IMG/VR virus record: IMGVR_UViG_3300042504_000478
Coordinates: 1-22,313 of that record
Strand: one strand, 5' to 3'
DNA: 22,313 nt
Origin: a virus
The notes beneath the pieces were generated by a model that did no database searches, had not been told where the DNA came from, and saw only the letters and a program-made list of their open reading frames with translations. Shown piece by piece: positions 816 to 14,647 of this stretch (positions within the stretch are counted from its first letter, which is position 1; each line of letters opens with the position of its first letter). The position numbers were made by a program, and so were the translations under genes.

Positions 816-968
816 ATGAACAAGATGAAGAAGGTCGCATCGGCTGAAGTCAAGAAGCACGAACAGCGGATGCACAAGATGGCCAAGGGCGGTGTCACGT
901 CCGCGATGGCTCAGCAGATGGGCCGCAACATGGCCCGCGTCAAGAACCAAGGCAAGGTGGGGAAATGA
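816..968 (+). CDS. Conserved basic micro-protein (50 aa) with MAKGG motif
   Basis: ATG 816 to TGA 968 encodes a 50-residue, very basic protein with a strong ribosome binding site just upstream. It has a lysine-rich helical N-terminus, a central MAKGG at residues 22-26, and an end of the form GRNMARVKNQG. Micro-proteins with this MAKGGVTS...GRNxARV layout recur in environmental tailed phages; the function is unknown. Its stop overlaps the next start by four bases (ATGA at 965-968), which suggests translational coupling. Its charge would suit contact with DNA or an acidic partner, but that is speculation. The AKGG motif recurs in larger virion proteins downstream. Confidence 0.65.
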   Translation: MNKMKKVASAEVKKHEQRMHKMAKGGVTSAMAQQMGRNMARVKNQGKVGK

Positions 969-1129
969 AAACGCCTGCACAGAAGCCTGAGCCGACCCTC
1001 CAGAACCTGCGGGTGACGGTGGGGCCGTACTCCAACAAAGCGTGCCCGGAGCCGAAGACTTCGGGCGTCAAGACGCGCGGCAACGGCGCGGCTACCAAGG
1101 GCACCACGGCGCGTGGACCGATGGCGTAA
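965..1129 (+). CDS. Conserved basic micro-protein (54 aa), TRGNGAATKG type
   Basis: ATG 965 lies inside the stop of the previous micro-gene, and TAA is at 1127-1129, giving 54 residues. The C-terminal half is a low-complexity basic stretch (KTSGVKTRGNGAATKG, ending RGPMA). This end pattern is familiar from small proteins of environmental phages that sit next to head-tail genes, but no function is established. The protein is probably disordered and could bind DNA or a connector ring. The coupled start, tight packing and recognisable end support a real gene. The following adaptor gene starts three bases after the stop. Confidence 0.65.
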   Translation: MKTPAQKPEPTLQNLRVTVGPYSNKACPEPKTSGVKTRGNGAATKGTTARGPMA

Positions 1130-1132
1130 GAC

Positions 1133-1789
1133 ATGACCTACACCGAGCTTGTCGCGGCCCTACAGGGGTTCTTGGAGAACACGTTCGACACGGTGGATGT
1201 GAACACCTGCATCAAGCAGGCTGAGCAGCGCATCTACCTGACGATTGGGTTCGCCGCAACTCGGAAGGCTGCGACGTTGACGGCCACGATCTCGTCGCCG
1301 TACGTCACCTGCCCGTCGGACTTTCTATCTGCCCACTCCCTCGCCGTGGTGCCCGCCTCTGGCGTCTACACCTACCTGCTGAACAAAGACCCCAGCTTCA
1401 TCCGCGAAGCGTACCCGACGGTGGCTGCTGTCGGGTTGCCCAAGGTGTACGGCATCTACGGGGTCGATCAGGCAGATGCGAAGGAGCTTCGGTTTATCCT
1501 CGGACCGACGCCCGATCTGGCCTACAGCCTAGCGCTGGAGTATTACCACTACCCCGAGTCGATCACGACGGCTGCAACGGGTCGGACATGGCTGGGCGAC
1601 AACGTGGACTCCGTGCTGTTGTACGGTGCGCTGGTCGAGTGCTACACCTTCCTCAAGGGTGAAGCGGACCTCATCAAGCTGTACGATGACAAGTATAAGG
1701 AAGCGCTGCTGCTCGCCAAGCGGTTGGGTGACGGTGCGGAGAAGCAGGATCAGTACCGCTCAGGCTTCCAGAAGACCCCGGTGAGGTGA
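1133..1789 (+). CDS. Phage head-tail adaptor (SU10 adaptor-like)
   Basis: A complete gene of 218 residues from ATG 1133. The N-terminus (MTYTELVAALQGFLEN, then VDVNTCIKQAEQRIYL) matches the start of SU10-type adaptor proteins, in which an early helix with an A-E-x-R-I element precedes a beta-rich core. The middle is a beta sandwich (ATLTATI, YVTCPSDFL, LRFILGPTPD, LALEYYHYPE). The C-terminus is helical (LLYGALVECYTFLKGE, then LYDDKYKEALLLAKR), as in the truncated gene at the window start. Such proteins form a ring below the portal and connect it to the tail. The next gene starts one base after the stop. Function is fairly sure at the class level; the exact family name comes from recall. Confidence 0.7.
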   Translation: MTYTELVAALQGFLENTFDTVDVNTCIKQAEQRIYLTIGFAATRKAATLTATISSPYVTCPSDFLSAHSLAVVPASGVYTYLLNKDPSFIREAYPTVAAVGLPKVYGIYGVDQADAKELRFILGPTPDLAYSLALEYYHYPESITTAATGRTWLGDNVDSVLLYGALVECYTFLKGEADLIKLYDDKYKEALLLAKRLGDGAEKQDQYRSGFQKTPVR

Positions 1790-1790
1790 C

Positions 1791-2219
1791 ATGCCGATCT
1801 CCCAAGGACTCACCACATCGTTCAAGGTCGGCCTGCTCACAGCGTCGTTCAACTTCAACGCCGGCACCTACAAGCTCGCGCTCTATGGCGCGACGGCTGA
1901 CATCGGGCCGAGCACCACAGCCTACACAGCCGTGGGCGAGATCTCGGGCACGGGCTACACGGCTGGCGGGGCCATCATCACGGTCACGACTGCGCCGACC
2001 TCCACGGGCACGACGGCGTTCTTCGGCTTCAGCAACGCCACATGGACGGGCGCGTCGTTCGTTGCACGCGGCGGGCTTATCTACCTCGCCAACGGGACCA
2101 CCAACCCGAGCATCGCGGTGCTGGACTTCGGTTCTGACAAGGTGGCGACTCCGGCTGTGCCGTTCGTGGTGACGATGCCGCCGCCCACTGCAACCTCTGC
2201 CCTCATTCGACTGCCATGA
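1791..2219 (+). CDS. Small beta-rich virion-type protein
   Basis: The protein has 142 residues from ATG 1791. It is threonine/glycine-rich and alternating hydrophobic, suggesting a beta sandwich: TYKLALYGATADI, AYTAVGEISGTGY, ATWTGASFVARGGLIYL, then IAVLDFGSDK. This layout (short Y-x-ALY strand, E-x-SGTGYTAGG, ALIY, AVLDFG) is widespread in phages as a small structural or tail-associated protein of unknown role. Its stop overlaps the next start by four bases (ATGA at 2216-2219), coupling it to the fibre gene, so it may be a fibre-base or decoration subunit. There are no catalytic signatures. Confidence 0.6.
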   Translation: MPISQGLTTSFKVGLLTASFNFNAGTYKLALYGATADIGPSTTAYTAVGEISGTGYTAGGAIITVTTAPTSTGTTAFFGFSNATWTGASFVARGGLIYLANGTTNPSIAVLDFGSDKVATPAVPFVVTMPPPTATSALIRLP

Positions 2220-3739
2220 CGACATACACGACGAATCTTGGGCTTGCGCTGCCGGTCACGGGCGACCTGACTGGCACTTGGGGCGACACGGTCAACAATG
2301 CCATCACGAGCCTTCTGGACTCGGCTGTGGCGGGCACGACCACGCTCAGCAGCGATGCTGACGTGACGCTGACGGACACGACGGGCGCGGCCAACCAAGC
2401 AAGGCAGGCGATCATCCTCTGGACGGCGGGGGGCACGGTCACACGCAACATCACGGCTCCGGCGCGCACCAAGGCGTACATCGTCATCAACGCAACCAGC
2501 AGCACGCAGAGCATCGTGCTGCGCGGAGCGGGGCCTACGACGGGTGTCACCGTGGTGGCCGGCGAGCGCTGCCTTGTGGCGTGGAACGGCACCGACTTCG
2601 TGAAGGTCGGATCGACCGTCTTCTCGGGCACCTTGGGCGTCGCCAACGGCGGCACGGGCGCAACCTCGCTCACGCTCAACAACGTCTTGCTGGGCAACGG
2701 CACCTCGGCCGTTCAGGTTGTCGCGCCGGGTACGAATGGCAACGTACTCACGAGCGACGGCACAACGTGGACAAGCGCGGCTGCGCCGGGTGGTGCCAAC
2801 CTCCAAGTCTTCAGTTCGTCCGGCACATGGACGAAGCCTAGCGGCGCTCAGTTCGTGATGGTGGAACTCTGGGGCGGCGGCGGCGGTGGAGCAAGTGGGC
2901 GTCGCGGTGCAACATCAACAACGCGCGGCGGCGGCTCGGGAGGTGGCGGCGGGGCATTTAATACGCGAGTATTCCTTGCTTCTGACCTGACATCGACTGT
3001 TTCCGTCACGGTTGGCGCGGGCGGGACGGGCGGCGCTGCAATCACTGCCGACAATACAAGCGGAAACAACGGCAGCGCAGGCGGCACAACTTCGTTTGGT
3101 TCATACCTGGACGCGGGAGGCGGCGGCGCTGGTGCAGGCGGCGCAACCTCCGATTATGCAGGGCTGGGAAGTGCGGGTGGAAATGGCGGCACCATCGGAT
3201 CACGCGTCAACACTGCCTCGCCGGTTGTCGGCTTTCCGGGCGGGAGTGGTGGAGGTAGTACCATATCCCAGCAGGCTGGCAATGGTGGGGGATATGGTGG
3301 CGGCGGCGGCTCGTCAACAATGGGCGACACTCTTACAAACGTTGGTAACGGCGGTGGCCGTTCGGCCTTTGGTGGCGGCGGTGGCGGTGCAGGCGGCTCG
3401 ATAGCGTCTAACAACACCCCGCGTTCTCCAACGGTGGGCGGCGGTATTCTTGATTCGACAAACAGCCAAATTGGCGGCGGCGGGGCGGTTGGCACAAATC
3501 CTAACATCAACGTTAGTAATACTGGAACCGATAGCGGCACGGCGGGTGCGGCTGGCTCAACTAAGATTGGCGGTGGTGGCGGCGCTCCGGGGTCTGGGGA
3601 CGGCGGGACGGGCGGCGCTGGTGGTGCGGGCGGTAGTCAAGGCGGCGGCGGCGGTGGCGGCGGTGCAGCGCTAAACGGTAACAATACTGGCGCAGGCGGC
3701 GCTGGTGGCGCAGGCTACGCCCGCATCTACTCGTGGTGA
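2216..3739 (+). CDS. Tail fibre/adhesin with glycine-rich C-terminal domain
   Basis: The protein has 507 residues. The N-terminal half (1-135) begins NLGLALPVTGDLTGTWGDTV, a common virion-attachment start in phage fibres, and has beta strands plus a WNGTDFVKV segment. A linker follows with GVANGGTGATSL and VLTSDGTTWTS, the fibre shaft repeats seen in many phages. From residue 219 (ELWGGGGGG) to the end the sequence is dominated by runs of four to eight glycines separated by short Ser/Thr/Asn/Ala loops, preceded by the typical FSSSGTWTKPSGAQ entry. Glycine-rich domains of this kind (as in phage S16 gp38) can pack as polyglycine-II helices and carry receptor-binding loops. I infer a receptor-binding role. 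The glycine region is richer in A/T at loop codons than the N-terminal half, which suggests loop variation or exchange. Confidence 0.75.
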   Translation: MTTYTTNLGLALPVTGDLTGTWGDTVNNAITSLLDSAVAGTTTLSSDADVTLTDTTGAANQARQAIILWTAGGTVTRNITAPARTKAYIVINATSSTQSIVLRGAGPTTGVTVVAGERCLVAWNGTDFVKVGSTVFSGTLGVANGGTGATSLTLNNVLLGNGTSAVQVVAPGTNGNVLTSDGTTWTSAAAPGGANLQVFSSSGTWTKPSGAQFVMVELWGGGGGGASGRRGATSTTRGGGSGGGGGAFNTRVFLASDLTSTVSVTVGAGGTGGAAITADNTSGNNGSAGGTTSFGSYLDAGGGGAGAGGATSDYAGLGSAGGNGGTIGSRVNTASPVVGFPGGSGGGSTISQQAGNGGGYGGGGGSSTMGDTLTNVGNGGGRSAFGGGGGGAGGSIASNNTPRSPTVGGGILDSTNSQIGGGGAVGTNPNINVSNTGTDSGTAGAAGSTKIGGGGGAPGSGDGGTGGAGGAGGSQGGGGGGGGAALNGNNTGAGGAGGAGYARIYSW

Positions 3740-3744
3740 GCGAC

Positions 3745-4254
3745 ATGAGATACGCGATCATTCAAGGCGGAATCGTCGTCAACGTGGTGCTGGCCGAGCC
3801 CGAGTTCGCGGCCGAGCAGGGATGGATTGCAGCGCCCGACGAGGTATCGACCGGGTGGCTCTACGACGGGTCCACCTTCAGCCCGCCGCCGCCCGTGGTC
3901 AAGCCGCCCGAGGAGTGGCACAAGGAGATCAAGGCCGAGCGCGACCGCCGCACACTTGAAGGCGGCTACCCCGTCGCGGGCAAGTGGTTCCATTCCGACA
4001 CCGTGAGCCGCACGCAGCAGCTTGGGCTGGTCATGATGGGTGCGAACCTGCCGGCGGGCATCCAGTGGAAGACGATGGATGGCACCTTCGTGACGATGAC
4101 CCCGGCGCTCGCGCAGCTACTGTTTCAGGCCGCAACCGTGCAGGACACCACGACGTTCGCCGCCGCGCAGCAGGCCATCGCACAAGCCACCGCCGACCCG
4201 GTTGGCTTCAACTTGGCCACCATCGCGTGGCCCGCCATCTACACCCCGTCATGA
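3745..4254 (+). CDS. DUF4376-type tail fibre accessory/assembly protein
   Basis: I chose ATG 3745 (169 residues) over the in-frame GTGs at 3733 and 3736, which overlap the previous stop; GGTGAG at 3735-3740 serves as a weak ribosome binding site. The N-terminus (MRYAIIQGGIVVNVVLAE) resembles tail-fibre assembly or accessory proteins, followed by a proline-rich hinge (FSPPPPVVKPPEE). The second half fits DUF4376: IKAERDRRTLEGGY, GKWFHSDTVSRTQQ, W-x-T-MDGTFVTMT, then a long Ala/Gln helix. Proteins with this domain usually lie directly after a fibre gene and probably help fibre folding or attachment, consistent with its place here. The stop overlaps the next start (ATGA at 4251-4254). Confidence 0.7.
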   Translation: MRYAIIQGGIVVNVVLAEPEFAAEQGWIAAPDEVSTGWLYDGSTFSPPPPVVKPPEEWHKEIKAERDRRTLEGGYPVAGKWFHSDTVSRTQQLGLVMMGANLPAGIQWKTMDGTFVTMTPALAQLLFQAATVQDTTTFAAAQQAIAQATADPVGFNLATIAWPAIYTPS

Positions 4255-4565
4255 GACGCATCTGGGCGCATCAGGTCTTCGTGGCGCTGGATCAACTGGC
4301 CAACGCCATCCTCGCCGGCTGGGCGGATGAGACCATCTCCGCACGGTCTTTCCGGCTGGGCCATCGGGACAAGAAGGCCAACCGCTGGGGGCGCTGGCGC
4401 GTCATGTGGGTGCTGGTGGATGTGCTGTTCTGGCCGCAGGATCTGTGGCTGTACTTCCGCGACGGCGCGTGGCCGCTCGTCAAACATTGCGAGCGTGCTT
4501 ACATCAGCGAGTGCGACAGGCTGGGCCTGCCGCCTGAGTACCGGGACAAAAAACACCATGCTTGA
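4251..4565 (+). CDS. Conserved hypothetical protein before the holin
   Basis: I chose ATG 4251, which overlaps the previous stop, giving 104 residues; the frame extends further upstream but would then overlap the DUF4376 gene fully. Recognisable features are LDQLANAIL, GWADETISARSFRL, a WGRWRVMW/VLVDVLFW aromatic stretch, then HCERAYISE and LPPEYRDKK at the end. This combination recurs in small phage proteins beside lysis genes; I know of no proven function. Hydrophobic residues around 46-62 are interrupted by charges, so it is not a clear membrane protein. It overlaps the holin-like gene by eight bases, so a lysis or late-assembly role is plausible but unproven. Confidence 0.55.
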   Translation: MRRIWAHQVFVALDQLANAILAGWADETISARSFRLGHRDKKANRWGRWRVMWVLVDVLFWPQDLWLYFRDGAWPLVKHCERAYISECDRLGLPPEYRDKKHHA

Positions 4566-5115
4566 GATCCTATCCTTCATCACGGGCTTTCTCGGCCCTG
4601 TCGTACCGCAGGTCTTCAAGTGGTTCGAGCGCAAGCAGGAGTACCAGCACGAACTCGCCCTGATGGAACTGCGGATGAAGCAGGGCGCTCAGGAGCACCT
4701 GTGGCGTATGGAGTCGATCAACGCCTCGGCCGACATTGCCGAGATGCAGACCCTGCGCACACCGCAGACATCGTTCGGGGTGCAACTGCTCGACGCTGCC
4801 AAGGAATGGGTGAGCGACACCCGATGGGGCGCAGCAGTCATAGTGCCGGTGTTCTACCTGTTCGCGCTGCTGGACTTCGTGCTTGGCATGGTGCGGCCTG
4901 TCATCACCTACGCCGCGTTCGGGTTCTACATGGTCTACAAGTGGACCCTGTTCCAATCGCTCGCCGCCAACACCACCAAAGAAGCTGCCATCCTCGCCAC
5001 TTGGACCGATCAGGACTGGGCGGTGCTGCTGCTCGTTCTGGGCTACTACTTCGGCCAGCGCAGCATGAAGGCGGCATTCGGTGGGTCAACCCAAACGGAT
5101 AAGCGTGCCAACTGA
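4558..5115 (+). CDS. Holin-like membrane protein (GTA 3TM holin-like)
   Basis: ATG 4558 gives 185 residues; upstream in-frame codons overlap the previous gene in another frame and are not protein-like. A short hydrophobic N-terminus (LEILSFITGFLGPVVPQVF) is followed by a charged amphipathic helix (residues 21-68, with KQEYQHELALMELRMKQ). Hydrophobic segments then lie at about 91-111 (AVIVPVFYLFALLDFVLGM), 113-127 and 154-165 (WAVLLLVLGYYF). A soluble helix followed by two or three C-terminal membrane segments fits the GTA_holin_3TM type. Its position immediately before an endolysin gene, two bases away, supports a holin that lets the lysozyme reach the cell wall. The family name is from recall; the membrane protein call is solid. 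Confidence 0.65.
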   Translation: MLEILSFITGFLGPVVPQVFKWFERKQEYQHELALMELRMKQGAQEHLWRMESINASADIAEMQTLRTPQTSFGVQLLDAAKEWVSDTRWGAAVIVPVFYLFALLDFVLGMVRPVITYAAFGFYMVYKWTLFQSLAANTTKEAAILATWTDQDWAVLLLVLGYYFGQRSMKAAFGGSTQTDKRAN

Positions 5116-5117
5116 CT

Positions 5118-5591
5118 ATGAGCGGTCGCTGGCTGCACCTCGCCCGTGATCTCGGCCACGAGTTCGAGGGCTTGCATCGGGTCGGCAAGGATGGGTTGAT
5201 CTACCCGTACCACGACCCGGTGGGGTTCCCCACGCAGGGCTGGGGCCGGCTGTTGAGCCGCAACAAATGGGAGTCGCTGAGCAAGTATCACGCGATCACC
5301 CGCGCCGAGGCCGACGAATGGTTTGAGCGCGATCTCGCCCGCCACGCTCGCGCTGTGTGGGCTCTGTGCCCGGTGCCTATGACGCCGGGGCAGTTTGCGG
5401 CGCTCACGGACTTCTCTTTCAACGCCGGTCCGGGTAACCTAGAGATCAGTGCGCTGCGCCGCCGCCTGCTGCGGGGGGACTACGAGGGTGCGGCCAACGA
5501 ATTCCCGCGCTGGGTCTACGCGCAAGGTATCAAACTCCCCGGCCTCGTGCGCCGTCGTGCGGCTGAGCGCGACCTGTTCCTGAAGGAGTAG
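5118..5591 (+). CDS. Endolysin, GH24 lysozyme
   Basis: The protein has 157 residues, about the size of T4 lysozyme. It cleaves the glycan chain of peptidoglycan between N-acetylmuramic acid and N-acetylglucosamine. The GH24 active site is visible: E17 in EFEGL, D33 in YHDPVG and T39 in FPTQGWG, with the D-to-T spacing of six as in T4 lysozyme (D20, T26) and a longer E-to-D loop (16 versus 9). Further family signatures are FAALTDFSFNAG (helix before the substrate cleft), LRRRLLRGDYEGAANEF and the closing GLVRRRAAERDLF. There is no signal or SAR helix, so release should depend on the holin just upstream. No spanin gene is visible nearby. The ribosome binding site is weak, and coupling to the holin stop two bases upstream is likely. 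Confidence 0.93.
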   Translation: MSGRWLHLARDLGHEFEGLHRVGKDGLIYPYHDPVGFPTQGWGRLLSRNKWESLSKYHAITRAEADEWFERDLARHARAVWALCPVPMTPGQFAALTDFSFNAGPGNLEISALRRRLLRGDYEGAANEFPRWVYAQGIKLPGLVRRRAAERDLFLKE

Positions 5592-5601
5592 TCGTGCTAG
5601 C

Positions 5602-6324
5602 TTATTGCTCTGCTTTGCGCTTAGCCCAGTACGCTTTCATGGCTTCGGATTGGCGTCGTCGCTGTTCGGGGGATCTAAGCGTAGCCGCACGCTTGGCAGC
5701 GATGGTTGGATCGCTGTTAAGTACCTTGTGGTACTCGCGCATGGGATTGCTAGGATCTAGCAGTCGCTCCCTGCGGCGCTGTTTTTCTTCATCTGAGTGC
5801 AGCGGCCTTCCTAGCTTCTTGGCTAACATCATAGTGCGATACTCAGGATCAGCCCACTTAGCTTTTATTTTTGCGCGAACTTCTTCTCGTTTAGCGGGGT
5901 TGGCATCGCCTGCAAACTTCTCGCGAATATCAGCGTCTTTCATGCGCTTTGCTTGTTTGGCTCTGGCAGCTTCCCCCCTAATCGGATGGTTAGGGTCTAG
6001 TAAGGCTTGTCTCAACTTCTCTATGTGTTCGGCAGAACGAGGGTGAGCACCTTGACCTCCCGGCATCAGATTAGTAAGCGTTCCAGTGCCCATCTGTATA
6101 CGCCCATACAGTTCGATAAGTTGCGTTTCCACACGAGTGCCTTCTTCAATGCTGGCCACCGGGCGAAGTTCAACTACAATCCTGTCTACCCCAACTTCGA
6201 GCATTTTTTGCCGACACAGCCAATTCCTGTTACCTTCATTACGGGGGTTGGTGCGCCTGCGGTTTTTTGTAAACCCGACGTAGAATGGAGAGCCTTCGGG
6301 CGTTTTCCAGATGTAGACGTACAA
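5602..6324 (-). CDS. GIY-YIG homing endonuclease (free-standing, antisense)
   Basis: This is the only convincing minus-strand gene. The frame stays open to 6468, but I place the start at TTG 6324: AAGGAG lies six bases upstream, the product then begins MYVYIW, the usual start of this subfamily, and the overlap with the + strand gene at 6364 disappears. The 240-residue product has the nuclease core YVYIW (2-6), FYVGFTKNRRR (14-24) and a catalytic-Glu helix RVETQLIELYGR (E66). A long basic tail carries repeated helical units with LLDPNHPIR and LLDPSNPMR, like the DNA-binding NUMOD-type repeats of homing enzymes. Such enzymes nick or cut specific sites to spread their own gene. GC is about half in the rows I counted (28/60 at 6181-6240), below the neighbours, which suggests recent arrival. 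It ends ten bases after the endolysin stop. Confidence 0.88.
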   Translation of the reverse strand: MYVYIWKTPEGSPFYVGFTKNRRRTNPRNEGNRNWLCRQKMLEVGVDRIVVELRPVASIEEGTRVETQLIELYGRIQMGTGTLTNLMPGGQGAHPRSAEHIEKLRQALLDPNHPIRGEAARAKQAKRMKDADIREKFAGDANPAKREEVRAKIKAKWADPEYRTMMLAKKLGRPLHSDEEKQRRRERLLDPSNPMREYHKVLNSDPTIAAKRAATLRSPEQRRRQSEAMKAYWAKRKAEQ

Positions 6325-6330
6325 GATGTT

Positions 6331-6336
6331 CTCCTT
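6331..6336 (-). promoter_or_regulatory. Ribosome binding site that fixes a TTG start
   Basis: On the minus strand AAGGAG is followed by a six-base spacer and TTG at 6324-6322. It is the best-placed Shine-Dalgarno for the GIY-YIG gene and argues against the longer version that would run into the start of the opposite gene at 6364. Confidence 0.7.
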
Positions 6337-6363
6337 GTTGGTGGCCGGTAGGGGGAGTGTACC

Positions 6364-8487
6364 ATGGGCCTTGTGAAAGTCAAATTCTCTTCCGGCGTTA
6401 ATCGCGAAAATACCCGCTACACCACCGAAGGGGGCTGGTACGACTGCGACAAGATTCGCTTTCGTCAAGGCACACCTGAGCAGATAGGCGGCTGGGCGCG
6501 TATATCAGCCAACACGTTCATCGGCATCTGCCGCTCGCTTTGGAACTGGGTCACGCTGGGGGCGCTCAATCTCATGGGCGTGGGCACCAACCGCAAGTTC
6601 TACATCGAGCTTGGGGGTGCGTACAACGATGTCACGCCGATCCGCTCTACCGCCACGCTGACCAACCCCTTCACGGCCACCAACGGCTCCTCCACCATCA
6701 CGGTTGCGCACATTGCGCACGGCGCTGCCACGGGCGACTACGTCACGTTCATGGGTGCCGGCATCACGGGGCTCGGCGGCAACATCACGGCTGCGCTGCT
6801 CAAAGGCGAGTTCCAGATCACGGTCACCACCGCCAACGCCTACACCATCACAGTGGGGGCCACAGCCAACGCCACGGACGCTGCAGGCTCGCCCGGCGGC
6901 GGGACGGTCATTGCGCAGTATCAGGTCAACTCCGGCGAGACGGCTACGGTGCCGCTGGTGGGCTGGGGCTCGGGCGGCTGGGGTATCTCCTCGTGGGGCG
7001 GCAACGGCCCCGCGCCGTTGAACCCGACAGCGCCTGCTCTGCGCATCTGGAACCAGCAGAACTTCGGCGAAGACCTCGTGTACGGCCCCAACGGCGGGCC
7101 GCTGTACTACTGGGATGCCACCAAGGGCGTGGCCCCGAGCACGGTCACCATCACCATCGCGTCTCCCGGCGTCGTCACGTTCGGCTTTGCGCCCAACAAC
7201 GGCATGGTGGTGTCCTTCACCACGACGGGGGCGCTGCCCACGGGTCTGTCGGTCGGGACGTACTACTACATCGTCAACGCTGCGGGCTTCACGGGGCAGC
7301 TTTCGTTGACCTACAACGGCACACCGATCAACACCTCGGGCTCGCAGTCGGGCACGCACTCGCTGTCGGTGCGTGGGGTGCCGCTGTCGTCCATGCCCGG
7401 TGCCTCGAACACGCCGACCTTCGTGAACTACGCGCTGGTCTCGGACATCAGCCGGTTCGTCTTCGCCTTCGGCACCAATGAGCTTGGCGGGACGGTGGTT
7501 GACCCGATGCTGGTGCGCTGGTCCGATCAGGAGGATGCGGCCAACTGGACGCCCTCGGCCACGACGCAGGCTGGGTTCACTCGGCTGTCCAACGGCTCGT
7601 TGATCCAGACGGCCATCCAGACCCGGCAGGAGATCGTCGTTTTCACCGACTCGGCGCTGTACTCGTTCCAGTACGTCGGCCCCCCGTATGTGTGGTCATC
7701 GCAGATCCTGTCGGCCAACATCTCGGTCATCAGTTCACGCGCAGGCGCTTTGGCCTCGGGCGTCGTCTACTGGATGGGGATTGACAAGTTCTACAAGTAC
7801 GACGGTCGGGTGCAGACCCTGCGCTGCGATCTGCGGCAGTACATCTACACCGACATCAACCTCAGTCAGACTCCGCAGGTGTTTGCCAGCACCAACGAAG
7901 GGTTCAACGAGGTCTGGTGGTTCTACTGCTCGGCGGCAAGCAGCACGGTGGACCGCTACGTCGTGTACAACTACGGCGAAGACATCTGGTACTACGGTAC
8001 GCTGGCGCGTACGGCGTGGATCGACTCCCCGCTGCGGCCCAATCCGCAGGCTGCGACCTACCTGAACAACCTCGTCTCGCACGAGTTCGGTACGGATGAC
8101 AACGACACCGGCACGCCGGCTGCGATCAATTCGTACATCCAGTCCTCTGAGTTTGACATCGGCGACGGGCACAACTTCGGCTACATCTGGCGGGTGCTGC
8201 CTGACATTACGTTCCGTGGCTCGACGGCCGGCTCGCCCACCGCCACGCTCACGCTGTTCACGCTGAAGAACTCGGGCTCGGGCTACACCAGCCCTGCGTC
8301 GCAAGGCGGCACCAACACAGCCAGCATCGTCCGCACGGCCACCCTGCCGGTCGAGGTGTACACCGGACAGGTCTACACGCGGGTGCGTGGTCGGCAGATT
8401 TCGCTGAAGGTCTCCAGCGCTCAGGTGGGCACGACGTGGCAGCTTGGCGCACCGCGCCTCGACATCAAGCCGGATGGGAGGAAGTAG
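6364..8487 (+). CDS. P22 gp10-like tail accessory/DNA stabilisation protein
   Basis: The protein has 707 residues from ATG 6364, with GGGGGAG at 6350-6356 as ribosome binding site. It opens FSSGVNRENTRYTTEGGWYDCDKIRFRQG, then has repeated beta blades: LNLMGVGTNRKFYIE, VDPMLVRWSDQED, a long QTRQEIVVFTDSALYSFQYVG stretch, VYWMGIDKFYKYDG and DRYVVYNYGEDIWYYGTL. This order is typical of the phage stabilisation (P22 gp10-like) family, which forms a propeller that plugs the tail base after packaging. Two modules look inserted: about residues 97-190 (NPFTATNGSSTITV...YTITVGA) and 259-337 (VSFTTTGALPTGL...YYYIVNA), both small Ig/beta-like units often found in phage surface proteins. GC is very high (47/60 at 6961-7020). 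Certain as a virion protein; the gp10 link is from recalled motif order. Confidence 0.65.
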   Translation: MGLVKVKFSSGVNRENTRYTTEGGWYDCDKIRFRQGTPEQIGGWARISANTFIGICRSLWNWVTLGALNLMGVGTNRKFYIELGGAYNDVTPIRSTATLTNPFTATNGSSTITVAHIAHGAATGDYVTFMGAGITGLGGNITAALLKGEFQITVTTANAYTITVGATANATDAAGSPGGGTVIAQYQVNSGETATVPLVGWGSGGWGISSWGGNGPAPLNPTAPALRIWNQQNFGEDLVYGPNGGPLYYWDATKGVAPSTVTITIASPGVVTFGFAPNNGMVVSFTTTGALPTGLSVGTYYYIVNAAGFTGQLSLTYNGTPINTSGSQSGTHSLSVRGVPLSSMPGASNTPTFVNYALVSDISRFVFAFGTNELGGTVVDPMLVRWSDQEDAANWTPSATTQAGFTRLSNGSLIQTAIQTRQEIVVFTDSALYSFQYVGPPYVWSSQILSANISVISSRAGALASGVVYWMGIDKFYKYDGRVQTLRCDLRQYIYTDINLSQTPQVFASTNEGFNEVWWFYCSAASSTVDRYVVYNYGEDIWYYGTLARTAWIDSPLRPNPQAATYLNNLVSHEFGTDDNDTGTPAAINSYIQSSEFDIGDGHNFGYIWRVLPDITFRGSTAGSPTATLTLFTLKNSGSGYTSPASQGGTNTASIVRTATLPVEVYTGQVYTRVRGRQISLKVSSAQVGTTWQLGAPRLDIKPDGRK

Positions 8488-9096
8488 ATGGGACAGCTAC
8501 TCCCGCCGCGCGCTCCTAACCTGCCGCTTGCACCCACCGACTACAGTTCTGCGCATCAAGAGAAGCTGACCAACGCGCTGCGGCTGTACTTCAACCAGCT
8601 GGACGGGTCTTTGCAGCAGTTGCTGCGCGGGTTCAACAACTACGGCACGTTCTACAGTACGGTTACGCAGACCAACCCGGTAGCGTCAGCTGTAAACCTA
8701 GTAACGTACAACAACACGTCAGAAGCGTTCGGCGTAGACTATGACCCAGCAAATCCGTCGCGCGTGCGCGTGACGATGGCGGGGGTATACAACTTTCAGT
8801 TCTCTGCGCAACTAGACCACACAGGCGGCGGTAATGTAGATTTTTTTATATGGTTTCGCGTCAACGGTACCAATATACCTAATAGCGCGACCAAGGTGGT
8901 TGTTGCGGGGCCGAATGACGAAACCGTAGCCTCTTGGAACTATCTAACTTCTATGGCGGCTGGGGACTACTTCGAGTTGGTCTGGAGTTCCCCAAACACA
9001 GGCGCTAGAATATTGGCAGAGCCTGCCGCTGCGCCGATCCCTGCGATCCCTTCCGTCATCATGACGGCGACTTACGCCTACCCGGCGGACAATTGA
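8488..9096 (+). CDS. Jelly-roll (C1q/TNF-like) virion protein
   Basis: The protein has 202 residues from ATG 8488, immediately after the previous stop, with GGGAGG at 8476-8481 as ribosome binding site. The N-terminus (LPLAPTDYSSAHQEKLTNALRLYFNQLD) is a short virion-anchor helix common in small phage structural proteins. From residue 50 the protein is a beta sandwich: NLVTYNNTSEAFGVDYD, VTMAGVYNFQFSAQL, FFIWFRVNGTNIP, a YFELVWSS strand and a final VIMTATYAYP. The GVYNFQFS...VNG...YFELVW order fits the C1q/TNF-like fold used in fibre tips and decoration proteins. The beta domain is coded by strikingly AT-rich DNA for this genome (25/60 GC at 8821-8880) while the first 150 bases are not, suggesting the domain was exchanged. 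Likely host-recognition or capsid/tail decoration. Confidence 0.65.
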   Translation: MGQLLPPRAPNLPLAPTDYSSAHQEKLTNALRLYFNQLDGSLQQLLRGFNNYGTFYSTVTQTNPVASAVNLVTYNNTSEAFGVDYDPANPSRVRVTMAGVYNFQFSAQLDHTGGGNVDFFIWFRVNGTNIPNSATKVVVAGPNDETVASWNYLTSMAAGDYFELVWSSPNTGARILAEPAAAPIPAIPSVIMTATYAYPADN

Positions 9097-9103
9097 GGTA
9101 CCC

Positions 9104-11881
9104 ATGAGCCTCGCAACGATTGCTCAGGAACTCGCCACCAAGGGACGCCACGGCGACTCGACGCTGGTGCACATGACCCCTGCCGAAGTGGCGGGCCTTG
9201 CGGCTATCGCCCGCGCGCACGGTGGCGACATCACGATCAACCCCGACACGGGCCTGCCGGAAGCGAACTTCCTCAAGAAGATCCTCCCCGCGCTTGCAGG
9301 GGCGGCTGTGGGCAGCATCACCGGGATGAACCCGTTCATGTCCAGCCTGCTGGTGGGCGGCGCGACGGGTCTGGCTTCAGGCAGTCTGAGCAAGGGTCTC
9401 GCGGCGGGGCTCGGTGCCTACAGCGGTGCCAGTCTGGCGGGAGGTCTTTCGACGCTGGGCGAGCAGGCTATGGCTTCGCAGGCGCTTCGCGGCGCAAGCG
9501 ACGAGGTCTTTGCGGAGGGACTGTCGCCTCAGCAGATTGCGGGAACCGCTAATGCTTCCCCGTTCGACAAGCTCAGCGCGGGGTTCAACCGTTTGACAGA
9601 GAAAGGCGGGCCGCAGGCGTTCGTCAACGCCATGGGCGGCAACAAGGCGCTGATGCAGGCGGGGTTGGCTGGGCTTGCCGGCGCTTCGATGATGGCCCCG
9701 CAGCGGACGGTGCCTACGGTGACTCAGCAGCCCTCGCTCATCCGCCCCATGGTGATGCAGCGCGAGCAGCGCCCGTGGTACGAGGCCCACCGGACGGGGC
9801 AGCACTTCAATGAGTCGCTCACGCCCATGACGCCTTACCAAGCGGCCGAGGGCGGCGAGGTTCCGAGCACAGATGCGGAGCCCGTGCAGATGTACGCCGA
9901 TGGGGGCCAGACGCTCGACATGAACCGCCTGCGCGGCATGCAGCAGACCGACGCCATCAACTACCTGCGAGGCATTGCTCCCGGCCAACTCAACATCACC
10001 AGTGCGCAGAACCCCAGCGAGGGCGGGGGCATGTTCTACACCGCACCGGGGGGGCTTCCCGGAGGCGGGGATATGCTGCGACCGATCTACACGGGCGGTT
10101 CAGGAGAGGGCGAAGCACAGACGCTCACAGGGTTCACACGCCCGCTAACCCCTGAGTTCGATCCGACGTATGCGGGGGGGCGCTTCGGGCAGTATTTCGG
10201 TAACTACGACCCGCAGGGGCAGCTGCGCGACATCACGTTCAATCCGCAAGAACGGCATGGTGGGTTCCTCAACGAGAACCAAGACCTTATAGCAAACTTG
10301 GCGATTGGTGCTCTGGCAGGGCCGGGGCTTGCATCCCTGTTCAACGGCGGGCTTGGCGGTGCGCTTGCTTCTGGAGCGATACTGGGAGGCGGCTCCGGGG
10401 CTATGAACGCGCTTACCAATGATCAGAACATCCTTCGCGGTGCACTGCGCGGTGCAGCTACAGGGGCTGCAGGTTCTGGCCTGTCGTATGGGGTCGGGCA
10501 ACTGACCAATAACGCCAATCTTGGAGGTGCTGACTCAGTTGGCGACGGCGGTGCGGGCGGGCCGTCGGTAGAGTCGGCTATTGACGAGGCTTTCCCTAGG
10601 GGAGACTACGACGCCTACACTCGCGCTGCGTTGGACGCTGCCAATACTGGCGCTACAGGTTCTAGTCTTACCGATCTAGCACGGCGCGCTGGCACGTCTG
10701 TTGCCGACTTCGTGCGCAACAACTCCACGCTTACGGCGCTCGGGGTCGCTGGCCTTGCAGGCGCAGCCGCAGACACGCCGGATCAGCGGCAGACGACGGG
10801 CACCGGCACGACCATCCCGACGAACACCAACCCCATCATCACATCGACGGGGGGTACGACCAACACCACGCAGGCGGGTGGGAACCGGCCGGGCATGCGT
10901 ACGCAGTCCGAGATCGCATTCGACTATCTCATGGGCCGCAGGCCCACGTCCCGTGCGACAGAGGCGGATCTCTCGACGCAAGGGCTGATCGATCTGTACA
11001 ACCAACGTGGCAACATGTCGGAGGCCGATTTCGTTCGTCTGATGCAGCAGCGCGGCGTCACCAACGACCAACTCCTGCTGGCGCGGAACACGGCGCTTGA
11101 CCGGCGCAACGCCACGCTTGCGCAGCCCACGGTGAACAGCCTCACGGATGCCTATCGCCAGCAAGTCGCTGCCGGTGGGTCGGAGCGCAACATTGTGGAC
11201 AACATGCGCAACCAAGGCGTGTCGGTTGCCTCCATGAACGAAGCGCGCAACGCGATGCTGGGCCTGCCGGCCAGCACGTCGTGGGATGAAGCCAACCGAC
11301 TCTATGCGGAACGGCAAGCGGCTGAACAGCAAGCAGCAGCTATTGCTGCGGCACGGCAAGCCTCTGAGCGTCAGGGGGCTGAACAGCAAGCGGCGCAGCG
11401 GGCGGCGACCTACACCCCGGAGTCGATTGCGGACGCTTACCGTCAGTCGGTTGGTACGGGCGCTGCCACTGAAGAGCAGTTCGTGGACTACGCCAAGTCG
11501 CTGGGCATCACCAAGGATCAGTTGATGGCCGCACGGGGTATGTTGGCTTCGGGTGGCATCGCCTCACTTGCGCGCGGCGGCATGCCCCGTGACGGGCATC
11601 TTGGGGACTACTCGGACGGTGGGCGACTGCTGCGTGGCCCCGGCGATGGGGTGTCGGATTCGATCCCGGCGAGCATCAACGGACGTCGGCCGGCGCGGCT
11701 TGCAGATGGGGAGTTCGTGTTCCCCGCACGCATCGTGTCGGAGCTTGGCAACGGGTCCACGGAGGCCGGTGCACGGCGGCTGTACGCAATGATGGATCGC
11801 ATCCAGAAGCGCAGGCGTAAGACTGTGGGCCGCAACGCTGTCGCAGTAGACTCCAAAGCGCACAAACTCCTGCCTGCCTGA
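9104..11881 (+). CDS. Large internal/ejection-type virion protein
   Basis: The protein has 925 residues, with GAGGT at 9095-9099 as ribosome binding site. The start (KGRHGDSTLVHMTPAEVAGL, then HGGDITINPDTGLPE) is a recurrent N-terminus in environmental phage proteins. Hydrophobic Gly/Ala stretches lie at about 57-115 and 395-436 and could insert into membranes. Residues 628-814 hold three copies of a roughly 40-residue helical repeat. An Ala/Gln/Arg helix spans about 737-767. The C-terminus has a known phage pattern at 843-902: LRGPGDGVSDSIPA, then LADGEFVFPARIVSELGNGS and a helix LYAMMDRIQ. AEGG, YADGG, LASGG and YSDGG motifs occur at 248, 264, 814 and 836. It resembles proteins packaged in the capsid and ejected with DNA; a tape-measure role is the alternative. 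No peptidase or lytic motif is visible. Confidence 0.6.
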   Translation: MSLATIAQELATKGRHGDSTLVHMTPAEVAGLAAIARAHGGDITINPDTGLPEANFLKKILPALAGAAVGSITGMNPFMSSLLVGGATGLASGSLSKGLAAGLGAYSGASLAGGLSTLGEQAMASQALRGASDEVFAEGLSPQQIAGTANASPFDKLSAGFNRLTEKGGPQAFVNAMGGNKALMQAGLAGLAGASMMAPQRTVPTVTQQPSLIRPMVMQREQRPWYEAHRTGQHFNESLTPMTPYQAAEGGEVPSTDAEPVQMYADGGQTLDMNRLRGMQQTDAINYLRGIAPGQLNITSAQNPSEGGGMFYTAPGGLPGGGDMLRPIYTGGSGEGEAQTLTGFTRPLTPEFDPTYAGGRFGQYFGNYDPQGQLRDITFNPQERHGGFLNENQDLIANLAIGALAGPGLASLFNGGLGGALASGAILGGGSGAMNALTNDQNILRGALRGAATGAAGSGLSYGVGQLTNNANLGGADSVGDGGAGGPSVESAIDEAFPRGDYDAYTRAALDAANTGATGSSLTDLARRAGTSVADFVRNNSTLTALGVAGLAGAAADTPDQRQTTGTGTTIPTNTNPIITSTGGTTNTTQAGGNRPGMRTQSEIAFDYLMGRRPTSRATEADLSTQGLIDLYNQRGNMSEADFVRLMQQRGVTNDQLLLARNTALDRRNATLAQPTVNSLTDAYRQQVAAGGSERNIVDNMRNQGVSVASMNEARNAMLGLPASTSWDEANRLYAERQAAEQQAAAIAAARQASERQGAEQQAAQRAATYTPESIADAYRQSVGTGAATEEQFVDYAKSLGITKDQLMAARGMLASGGIASLARGGMPRDGHLGDYSDGGRLLRGPGDGVSDSIPASINGRRPARLADGEFVFPARIVSELGNGSTEAGARRLYAMMDRIQKRRRKTVGRNAVAVDSKAHKLLPA
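10985..11545 (+). repeat. Three diverged copies of a ~40-aa helical repeat in the ejection-type protein
   Basis: Copies are at 10985-11098 (38 codons), 11138-11260 (41) and 11423-11545 (41). Each begins with a short helix, (L/S)xDxYxQ or DAYRQ, has an acidic start of a second helix (SEADFV, SERNIV, TEEQFV), then G-V/I-(T/S) and a closing (D/A)-(Q/S)-(L/M)-xxARNxxL-type helix. The copies share pattern but not base identity, so the duplication is old. Confidence 0.7.
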
Positions 11882-11888
11882 GGACATC

Positions 11889-13049
11889 ATGGCTGACGCA
11901 ACCACTTCAGTTGTCGAACAAACCAACATCCCGTCGTATGCGCGGCCCTACGTCGAGGAGATGCTCGGCGCAACGGCTGGGCAGATCTTCGACTATCAGA
12001 TGGCTCCCAACCCGCAAACGGGACGGATGGAGCCGGTTCTGGACTCTACAGGGCGTCCTAGAATTGCTGGGTTCCGCCCGCAGGAAACCTACAGCGGCGA
12101 GCGCTTCGCGCAGTTCACGCCCCTGCAGATGCAGTCCTATCAGGGCGCGCAGAACCTTGGCGTCGCGCCTCAGTTGGGTGCCGCTACTGGGTTGGCTACC
12201 GCCGCAGGGCTAGGTGCGCTGGGTCAGCAGTATCAGGCGGGCACGTTCAATCCGCAGCAGATCGCCACGGGCACGTTCGGTCAGCCGCAGGCCGAGCAGT
12301 ACATGAGCCCGTACATGCAGAGTGTCACCGACATTCAGCAACGGGAAGCGCAGCGGCAAGCAGACATCGCACGCACTCAGCTGCATGCGCAAGCCACGCG
12401 CTCGGGAGCCTTTGGCGGTGGGCGGCACGGCATCATGGAGGCCGAAGCCAATCGCAACCTCGCGCTTCAGCTTGGCGACATCCAAGCCACCGGCCTGCAA
12501 GCGGCCTACCAGAACGCGCAACAGCAGTTCAACGCGGATCAGAACCGCCGCCTCCAAGCCGCCATGGCGAACCAGCAGACTGGGATGCAAGGCCAGCAAC
12601 TGGGGGAGCAGTCGCGCCAGTTCGGTGCCGGTCTCGGTATGCAGGGCGCGGGGCTCGGGCTGCAAGCCGCTGGGACGCTTGGGCAGCTTGGTCAGACGCA
12701 GTTTGGCCAGCAGACCGGAGCCCTTGGGATGCAGAACCAGTTCGGCACCCAGCAGCAACAGCAGGTGCAGAACATCCTTGGTCAGCAGTATCAGGAGTTC
12801 ATGGAGCAGCGCGACAACCCGTACAATCGTCTCGGGTTCATGTCGAACATGCTGCGCGGCCTGCCGCTGGCGCAGACGACTCAGATGAGTACTCCCGCTC
12901 AACCCAGCACTTTGAACCAGCTGCTTGGCATTGGTGTTGGCGCTGCCGGTCTTAGCCGGATGTTTGCGGAAGGCGGTACGGTCGAAGATGACAACGCTAA
13001 CGCTGGCCTGTACGACCTGATGCTGGCGCAAGTACGAGGAGCCGAGTGA
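11889..13049 (+). CDS. Glutamine-rich internal virion protein
   Basis: The protein has 386 residues from ATG 11889, with GAGGA at 11880-11884 as ribosome binding site. It opens with PSYARPYVEEMLGATAGQIF, then ETYSGERFAQFTPLQ. A long helical centre (residues ~135-330) is rich in Gln, Ala and Gly: YMSPYMQSVTDIQQREAQRQ, then ATRSGAFGGGRHGIMEAEA and repeated LGxQ/GxQ steps (GQQLGEQSRQFGAGLGMQ). The YMxPYMQxVxDIQ...GAFGGxR pattern is familiar from podovirus and pelagiphage-like internal proteins. The end has RMFAEGGTVEDD (AEGG at 360-363), a motif shared with neighbours. I infer a packaged, DNA-ejection or internal core protein; it could also be a tail-tube-lining protein. The stop overlaps the next start by one base (TGATG). 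Confidence 0.6.
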   Translation: MADATTSVVEQTNIPSYARPYVEEMLGATAGQIFDYQMAPNPQTGRMEPVLDSTGRPRIAGFRPQETYSGERFAQFTPLQMQSYQGAQNLGVAPQLGAATGLATAAGLGALGQQYQAGTFNPQQIATGTFGQPQAEQYMSPYMQSVTDIQQREAQRQADIARTQLHAQATRSGAFGGGRHGIMEAEANRNLALQLGDIQATGLQAAYQNAQQQFNADQNRRLQAAMANQQTGMQGQQLGEQSRQFGAGLGMQGAGLGLQAAGTLGQLGQTQFGQQTGALGMQNQFGTQQQQQVQNILGQQYQEFMEQRDNPYNRLGFMSNMLRGLPLAQTTQMSTPAQPSTLNQLLGIGVGAAGLSRMFAEGGTVEDDNANAGLYDLMLAQVRGAE

Positions 13050-14647
13050 TGAATAAGTTTGCCATTAGCGCGCTCATCCCTAAGCTGCAAGACGAAGTAT
13101 TAAAGCAGATTGCGCAAAAACGCAACCCGCTGGAGTCCCCTCTTGCGCTTGTGGAGCTTAACCGTCGTCAACAGATGCGACTGGAAAGCGCTGCGCCCGA
13201 TGCACCGTCACACGGCCCCACCGTGTTCGATAGCCAAATGTCGAGGCTTGCTGGTACAGGACTTGGTCGGATTGCGCCCAATAACGTAGCGGTGATGGCT
13301 AAAGGCGGACTGGCTGCGCTTGCTGAAGATGACGATGATGTGCCGCGCTACAACGGGTCGCAAGAGCAGCTGGTGCGTGAGTGGAACGCCTTGCCGCCTG
13401 TACAGCGAGGAGCAGCCAGTAGCTTGGGAGAGTTGTTTGGCAATCTGTTTTCTAGAGACGATCAGCGTATCGACCCTGAGACGCGAGAGCCGATCAGCTT
13501 TGCGGAGTTCCTGCGACGTAAAGAAGCGCGGCAGCTGACGGCACCGACTGCAGGTGCAGCTGGCGGCTATGATGATACACAGCGGTTGGCCAAGCGTGCG
13601 GCAACCGCCGCTGGCGAGCGCACTACCGGCGCTCCTGCCCCTGCTCCGGCTGGGGGTCGTCGGCCTGCGGGCCCGGCACTAGCGCCGGCAGCGGCTCCTG
13701 CTGCGCCGGCAGCGGCTCCTGTTGCGGCTGCGCCTACAGACTATGGCGCTCAGTTCGCTTCTGTGCTGGGCAAGTTGCCTGATCCGTTTGAAGCAGACCG
13801 CAATGCGCAGTTGGGGCGCGAAGCGGATGTAGCACAGCGTACGCTAAGAGCGCGTGAAGCGGTAAGCGCAAGGGCCGAAGAACTGTTCGGGGAACGCGGG
13901 CGGCGTTTGCAAGAAGATGAGCGTAACCTGTCAAAGCAGCGCAATCAAAATGTGGCGATGTCGCTCATTCAGGCAGGTGCAGCGATTGCTACGACGCCGG
14001 GCCCGGCCATGGCAGCTATTGCGCGCGGTATGGGCGTGGGTGCTAAGCAGTATGAGTCGGGGCTTGTTGAACTGAACAAGTCCCAGCAGTTGCTACGCGC
14101 GTCGCGTGAACGTCTGGAAGATGCGCGTCTCGGCAATGAGCGTGAGAAGGCAATGGCGGGCGTAGAAGCCGAGCGTATGATCGCTGAAGCGCATGCACGC
14201 CGGTTGGCCGGCATTCAGGCTGTGTATAACGTCAACGTGCAGACTGCGCGTACTATCCTGTCTGAAGGGGCTCAAGATGTCAGGCATCAAAAAGACATCA
14301 CGTCGCGCGAGCAGATAGCGCGTGAAGGTCACAAAGTGCAGCGTGAAGGTCACTCAGCGCAACTTAAAGCTGCCGGTATGGGCGCTGCCCCTCGTGATGC
14401 TGTTTCGTTGCTGGCTAACTCGATGAATATTCCGTACCATCAGGCGTTCCAGTACATGCAAACCGTTCAAGGTAAGCAGGCAGCGCTCAAGTACCTGTCG
14501 GATGATTGGGAAAAGAACGCGCAGCAGATCAGGATGAAGTTCCCCAACATCCAGTCGTTTGCGGACTATGCTGCTGCGCAAGGGATGCCGTTGGCCGGCG
14601 GTGCTGCGGGTTCTTCGCTACAATTTGAAGGCAAGCTGCCCAAGTAA
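13049..14647 (+). CDS. Coiled-coil internal virion protein with Ala/Pro linker
   Basis: I chose ATG 13049, overlapping the previous stop by one base, with CGAGGAG just upstream; an in-frame GTG at 13046 is less likely. The protein has 532 residues. The N-terminal helical part (PKLQDEVLKQIAQKRNPLES) leads to MAKGGLAALAEDDDD at 83-97, a motif shared with neighbouring genes, then NGSQEQLVREWNALP and an Ala/Pro linker at about 190-230 coded partly by a 21-base tandem repeat. Residues 250-470 are largely helical, with heptad-like RERLEDARLGNEREKAMAGVE. A hydrophobic stretch with SLIQAGAAIATTPGPAMAAI precedes a conserved-looking GMGVGAKQYESGL. It is fairly AT-rich compared with the genes before it. 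It looks like an internal or ejection protein; I know of no enzyme motif in it. Confidence 0.55.
   Translation: MNKFAISALIPKLQDEVLKQIAQKRNPLESPLALVELNRRQQMRLESAAPDAPSHGPTVFDSQMSRLAGTGLGRIAPNNVAVMAKGGLAALAEDDDDVPRYNGSQEQLVREWNALPPVQRGAASSLGELFGNLFSRDDQRIDPETREPISFAEFLRRKEARQLTAPTAGAAGGYDDTQRLAKRAATAAGERTTGAPAPAPAGGRRPAGPALAPAAAPAAPAAAPVAAAPTDYGAQFASVLGKLPDPFEADRNAQLGREADVAQRTLRAREAVSARAEELFGERGRRLQEDERNLSKQRNQNVAMSLIQAGAAIATTPGPAMAAIARGMGVGAKQYESGLVELNKSQQLLRASRERLEDARLGNEREKAMAGVEAERMIAEAHARRLAGIQAVYNVNVQTARTILSEGAQDVRHQKDITSREQIAREGHKVQREGHSAQLKAAGMGAAPRDAVSLLANSMNIPYHQAFQYMQTVQGKQAALKYLSDDWEKNAQQIRMKFPNIQSFADYAAAQGMPLAGGAAGSSLQFEGKLPK
13682..13723 (+). repeat. Two-copy 21-base tandem repeat in an Ala/Pro linker
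   Basis: Units 13682-13702 and 13703-13723 differ by a single base (CTGCT versus CTGTT at the end). Each codes for a seven-residue Ala/Pro block, so the linker length can change in frame by slippage. Confidence 0.8.

Follow-up and report, generated by a model that had tools for sequence, protein, structure and literature searches.

The window analysed here is a stretch of 22,313 bases from a single IMG/VR virus record and covers a run of head-tail genes. On its plus strand it carries the gene of a basic micro-protein of 50 amino acids (816..968), and further along it holds genes for an SU10-type adaptor (1133-1789, PF24175), a tail-fibre-like protein (2216-3739), a lysozyme (5118-5591) and a homologue of virion structural 'stabilisation' proteins (6364-8487, phrog_3287). 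These are followed, again on the plus strand, by the genes of a 925-residue ejection or tape-measure-like protein (9104..11881), a 386-residue DNA-ejection-type protein (11889..13049) and a 533-residue helix-rich protein (13046..14647), and by the start of a giant gene (14660-22312) that is cut by the window end. A contig of 57 kb (G001) represents the same virus, with a 9104 protein that is 100% identical; it prolongs the gene map upstream by portal, capsid and terminase genes and contains the giant gene at its length of 2996 residues. In the related contig G003, the region homologous to the giant gene is split over two reading frames. The tail-fibre-like protein is extremely glycine-rich, with 62 GG pairs and a GVANGGTGAT repeat. 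Between the lysozyme and stabilisation genes stands a lone minus-strand reading frame of 288 residues (5602-6468) that looks like a putative GIY-YIG-type homing endonuclease and a relative of which adjoins the stabilisation gene in G015. The annotated relatives, the lake metagenome phage DSL-LC04 and Synechococcus phage MinM2, arrange their stabilisation, tape-measure-like, ejection and giant genes in the same order as the window, and the phages as a whole form a large, mostly uncultured group with a podovirus-like gene order.

Several of these genes have in common a short peptide whose core is formed by five residues, (Met/Phe/Tyr)-Ala-any-Gly-Gly, often with an aliphatic residue next. In the window, all copies are encoded on the plus strand. 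The micro-protein carries MAKGG (879-893) at residue 22 of 50, the 11889 protein carries MFAEGG (12960-12977) at residue 359 of 386, which is 28 residues from its C-terminus, and the 13046 protein carries MAKGG (13295-13309) in the context GLGRIAPNNVAVMAKGGLAAL at residue 84 of 533. In the 9104 protein, motif copies lie at residues 264-836 of 925; the gene encodes MYADGG (9890-9907), LASGG (11543-11557), LARGG (11567-11581) and YSDGG (11609-11623), the last of which opens a near-invariant C-terminal domain, as well as a looser copy, AAEGG (9842-9856). LARGG is an addition to the copies listed in the original prediction, all of which were found in frame and correctly placed when checked against the sequence.

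The frequency of the motif was determined in 23 genomes, namely 21 related contigs of 50-68 kb together with MinM2 and DSL-LC04, in which genes were called with a simple purpose-made codon-usage caller, each genome was divided into its morphogenesis (head and tail) module and the rest, and expected counts were obtained from within-protein shuffles. The pattern [MFY]A[^P]GG occurs 188 times inside the module against 26.2 expected and 5 times outside it against 7.0 expected, and its count lies above all 100 shuffles in 19 of the 23 genomes. Restricted to a polar or charged middle residue, the pattern occurs 119 times inside (9.6 expected) and 2 times outside (1.8 expected). The two counts amount to an enrichment of about 7- to 12-fold within the module and to chance level elsewhere. 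The reversed motif is found 3 times against 10.1 expected, and five permuted motifs 1-21 times against 9-10, most of them near or below chance, while module proteins with less than 10% glycine still hold 38 copies against 7.8 expected. Since the 23 genomes are related and their counts are not independent, the test on a single genome and the number of families involved outweigh the pooled count. In the morphogenesis module of G001, 7 copies stand against 1.10 expected and none of 2000 shuffles reaches 7; these copies are spread over 6 motif-bearing proteins against 1.04 expected (maximum of 4 in 500 shuffles). Within these genomes, the comparison of virion with non-virion proteins that had been proposed for the motif gives an enrichment over composition-matched chance inside the module and chance level outside, and the equal frequency in replication genes that would have spoken against a virion tag is not seen, the motif having no recurrence there. 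The codons used at the motif are diverse, with all four Ala codons represented and Gly encoded mainly by GGC and GGT, so that the constraint lies on the amino acids and not on the DNA; this rules out a DNA-level signal such as a recombination or packaging site. When residue preferences were taken without bias over all isolated GG pairs, positions -3 (M/Y/F) and -2 (A) were only modestly prominent, presumably because most GG pairs of the module, for example those in tail fibres, are not this motif. Two sequences were treated as distinct from the motif: the GVANGGTGAT-type repeats of the tail fibres, and LSKGG[ST], which is encoded by a small HNH-like gene next to the helicase.

The sites are concentrated in the 9104-like, 11889-like and 13046-like proteins, in small basic proteins with KGKTKG-type tails, in an 'RGMG' family and in the micro-protein, with up to seven motif-bearing proteins per genome and five such module proteins in DSL-LC04. 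In the related genomes, no copy was found in 43,150 residues of giant proteins or in terminases, capsid proteins and adaptors, and a single copy was found in 22 portals. No strict copy occurs in the virion proteins of T7 and P22 either. The motif is therefore not a general virion feature, since most structural proteins of these phages lack it, as do T7 and P22. Among cultured phages, Roseobacter phage CRP-9 and Pelagibacter phage HTVC103P contain looser [MFY][ANS]xGG copies, several of them in one portal-adjacent protein, with no enrichment of the strict motif. HTVC034P and Lederberg contain no strict copy. The residue directly before the GG pair is free (K, E, D, G, S, N or R), and some relatives keep GG without the [MFY]A part. 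The often acidic surroundings described in the original prediction apply to the large proteins, whose sites are mildly acidic (mean net charge -1.7), but not to the small proteins, whose sites are strongly basic (+4.2).

The 9104 family comprises 77 relatives, of which 72 contain [MFY]A.GG somewhere and 70 contain YSDGG; the DSL-LC04 member is annotated as 'tail tape measure protein'. Counterparts of MYADGG are LYADGG at residue 262 in G003 and QYADGG at residue 242 in G008. The conserved C-terminal domain (GDYSDGGRLLRGPGDGVSDSIPA...ADGEFVFPA...LYAMMDRI, 11597..11878, plus strand) reaches a mean column identity of 57% over 53 sequences. Homologues such as that at G003:41704-46542 vary greatly in length, from about 220 to 1612 residues; their internal repeats are akin to residues 620-815 of the protein encoded in the window.

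By profile comparison, the 11889 protein would belong to the DNA ejection proteins, as its residues 65-358 match phrog_4287 (E 3.4e-11), which also likens it to the podovirus ejection proteins of the P22 gp7/gp16/gp20 type. Of the 29 non-fused proteins of its family, 18 have [MFY]A.GG at a distance of 17-32 residues from the C-terminus (a fraction of 0.020 expected by shuffling), and all 29 have GG within their last 45 residues. In the family alignment, conservation of the tail columns is highest at the two glycines (42/42 and 41/42 residues present), the columns beside them have diverged, and the motif comes immediately after a hydrophobic, helix-like Gly/Ala stretch. The 13046 gene, with 35 relatives found by profile and no match for a relative in a tblastn search of the phage collection, probably encodes a third ejection protein; [MFY]A.GG lies inside residues 40-170 in 25 of 28 relatives (a fraction of 0.017 expected by shuffling). 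The three ejection-type genes precede the giant gene in the window, as they do in DSL-LC04 and MinM2. Homologues of the 11889 and 13046 proteins are fused in many relatives (G004, G011, G012, G019, G020 and others) into proteins of about 770-900 residues, for example L133:12531-14981, which suggests that they act together. Tandem copies 8-9 residues apart also occur, as in FADGGIVAFADGGDVERYQVGG.

In an AlphaFold2 model of the fused relative L133, the motif sites at residues 354, 363 and 435 fall into stretches with pLDDT <50 (320-368 and 420-455) that flank a confident helical mini-domain (371-416), and in the poor model of the 9104 C-terminal domain the motif part has a pLDDT of about 50 or below. 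The low values at the motif in these two models are consistent with disorder but may equally reflect shallow alignments. As modelled, the sites stand beside and not inside confidently predicted domains, which would fit flexible linkers. A Foldseek search with the fused model found further phage proteins, mostly from uncultured phages, but no relative of solved structure, and sequence searches of the PDB with the 11889 and 9104 proteins and two small proteins gave nothing credible.

The micro-protein has 54 related loci, down to 53% identity, and every full-length relative retains [ML]A[KQ]GG; a tblastn search of the phage collection with the micro-protein gave no match. Its motif joins a variable N-terminal half to a conserved VTSAMAQQMGRNMARV half. 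Such exchange is common among the small proteins, which are mosaics in which unrelated flanks are swapped at the motif, common tails such as VTRADGCAxKGKTKG follow it, and one downstream half can stand behind up to eight different upstream contexts; conversely, the KHEQRMHK-MAKGG start of the micro-protein family precedes three different continuations. Two reading frames of 112 residues (L055 and L056) combine within a single protein a phrog_16759-type start, the micro-protein start and a RADGCAxKGKTKG tail; a GG motif closes each of these segments, and two of the modules are joined at MAKGG. The domain phrog_16759 forms the N-terminus of some small motif proteins; it also begins two PHROGs families annotated as virion structural and occurs in a small gene of phiKZ. 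This distribution speaks for the small proteins being part of the particle.

The motif thus recurs above chance and at conserved places in unrelated proteins, as is characteristic of short linear motifs. The original prediction had seen in it a sorting, docking or cleavage tag common to otherwise unrelated proteins of the virion region. Enrichment, conserved position and presumably poorly ordered linkers all fit a tag, with docking or packaging the better guess for its type, while the cleavage version has been weakened. The reading we prefer, tentatively and at a likelihood somewhat short of even, is that of a short linear motif in flexible linkers by which internal virion proteins would be docked onto a common assembly partner. 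The motif would be displayed in the flexible linkers and tails of the three ejection-type proteins (9104, 11889 and 13046) and of the small basic head-region proteins, all of them probably made for the interior of the particle. There it might act as a docking peptide for one common partner, be it the scaffold, the portal lumen or the inner capsid wall; binding to this partner would gather the motif proteins and carry them into the procapsid, and avidity would increase with the number of copies, whether these stand in tandem or on different proteins. A counterpoint is the giant protein, which is probably also internal and yet lacks the motif. A more specific version, in which one five-residue address label on up to seven proteins per genome loads the ejection and small basic proteins into the procapsid via a single receptor, is conceivable if somewhat unlikely.

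The closest functional analogue is the capsid targeting sequence of T4, about ten N-terminal residues common to different proteins that suffice for packaging into the prohead and are then cut off (PMC7697877). Both are short peptides common to different proteins, and that of T4 brings its proteins into the prohead; however, the T4 sequence is N-terminal and removed by the head protease, whereas the present motif lies inside the protein or towards its C-terminus and is often repeated, and in the window it begins no protein (residues 22 of 50, 84 of 533, 359 of 386 and 264-836 of 925). It cannot be filed as a T4-type targeting sequence but, by analogy, could work like one. The literature searched, which most subscription journals lay outside, contained no earlier description of the motif or of linear motifs in ejection proteins.

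Among other explanations, the motif could be a local structural element that needs no specific partner, namely a helix end-cap followed by a Gly-Gly hinge, which we consider somewhat unlikely. The succession of a hydrophobic residue, Ala, any residue, Gly, Gly and an aliphatic residue fits a Schellman-type C-cap, the motif of the 11889 family directly follows its helix-like stretch, the modelled sites lie at domain borders, and a flexible hinge between helical segments would suit proteins that have to be unfolded and extruded. However, helical proteins of every kind have such caps, whereas the motif stays at chance level elsewhere and is absent from the giant proteins, and tandem copies as closely spaced as those in FADGGIVAFADGGDVERYQVGG cannot each cap a helix.

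A further alternative is proteolytic processing, in which a protease of the phage or its host would cut at or after Gly-Gly as the head or tail matures. In T5 and lambda, assembly of the tail involves cleavage of the tape measure protein (PMC10038345; PMC3224144), the P22 record notes that a host protease removes 20 N-terminal residues of gp7, and in the fused relatives the domain at the fusion point is bordered by motifs. Lambda gpH, the only lambda protein with the strict motif, has two copies, FATGG and YATGG, near its C-terminus, where a GEFVF...G.G...LY.LM stretch can be aligned, at low similarity, with the 9104 C-terminal domain; this match, not reported by hmmsearch and given by hhalign in a single comparison an E of 0.007 and a probability of 5.5% over 26 columns, is not significant, and the likeness is too weak to claim homology. 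Against processing, the T5 cut is after Arg1127 and not after Gly-Gly (PMC10038345), the residue at -1 ranges over the seven amino acids named above, and a series of copies spaced 8-10 residues apart is hard to explain as cleavage sites. Pfam and PHROGs scans of most, not all, head-module genes of G001 recognised no separate maturation protease; they gave for its capsid protein a weak similarity to families of fused major head protein and protease. Taken together, we regard processing as quite improbable.

The motif might also be a relic of shared descent, left by a small gene segment that was duplicated and shuffled among neighbouring genes and kept by homology and not for a function. The mosaic small proteins with their common tails behind the motif, and the joining of two modules at MAKGG in L055 and L056, speak for such a history, but the three large proteins have nothing beyond the five-residue core in common, their flanks being entirely different, in the 11889 tails the columns beside the invariant GG have diverged, and synonymous codons at the motif in general are scattered, so that selection must hold the core; this origin is accordingly held to be distinctly unlikely. 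Chance occurrence in Gly/Ala-rich proteins has in its favour that the 9104 protein is glycine-rich and that its looser variants by themselves would not be conspicuous, but it is so improbable as to be ruled out by the shuffles, the reversed and permuted controls, the low-glycine proteins and the positional conservation.

How ejection proteins of podoviruses are recruited into procapsids is poorly understood, and a conserved, portable peptide that marks these proteins would make the question testable. It would also make internal virion proteins easier to identify in environmental phages that lack annotation, and could be put to use as a tag for loading cargo into phage capsids. If the docking reading in its single-receptor form is true, these phages would possess a packaging code that differs from the signal used by T4, which is N-terminal and cleaved.
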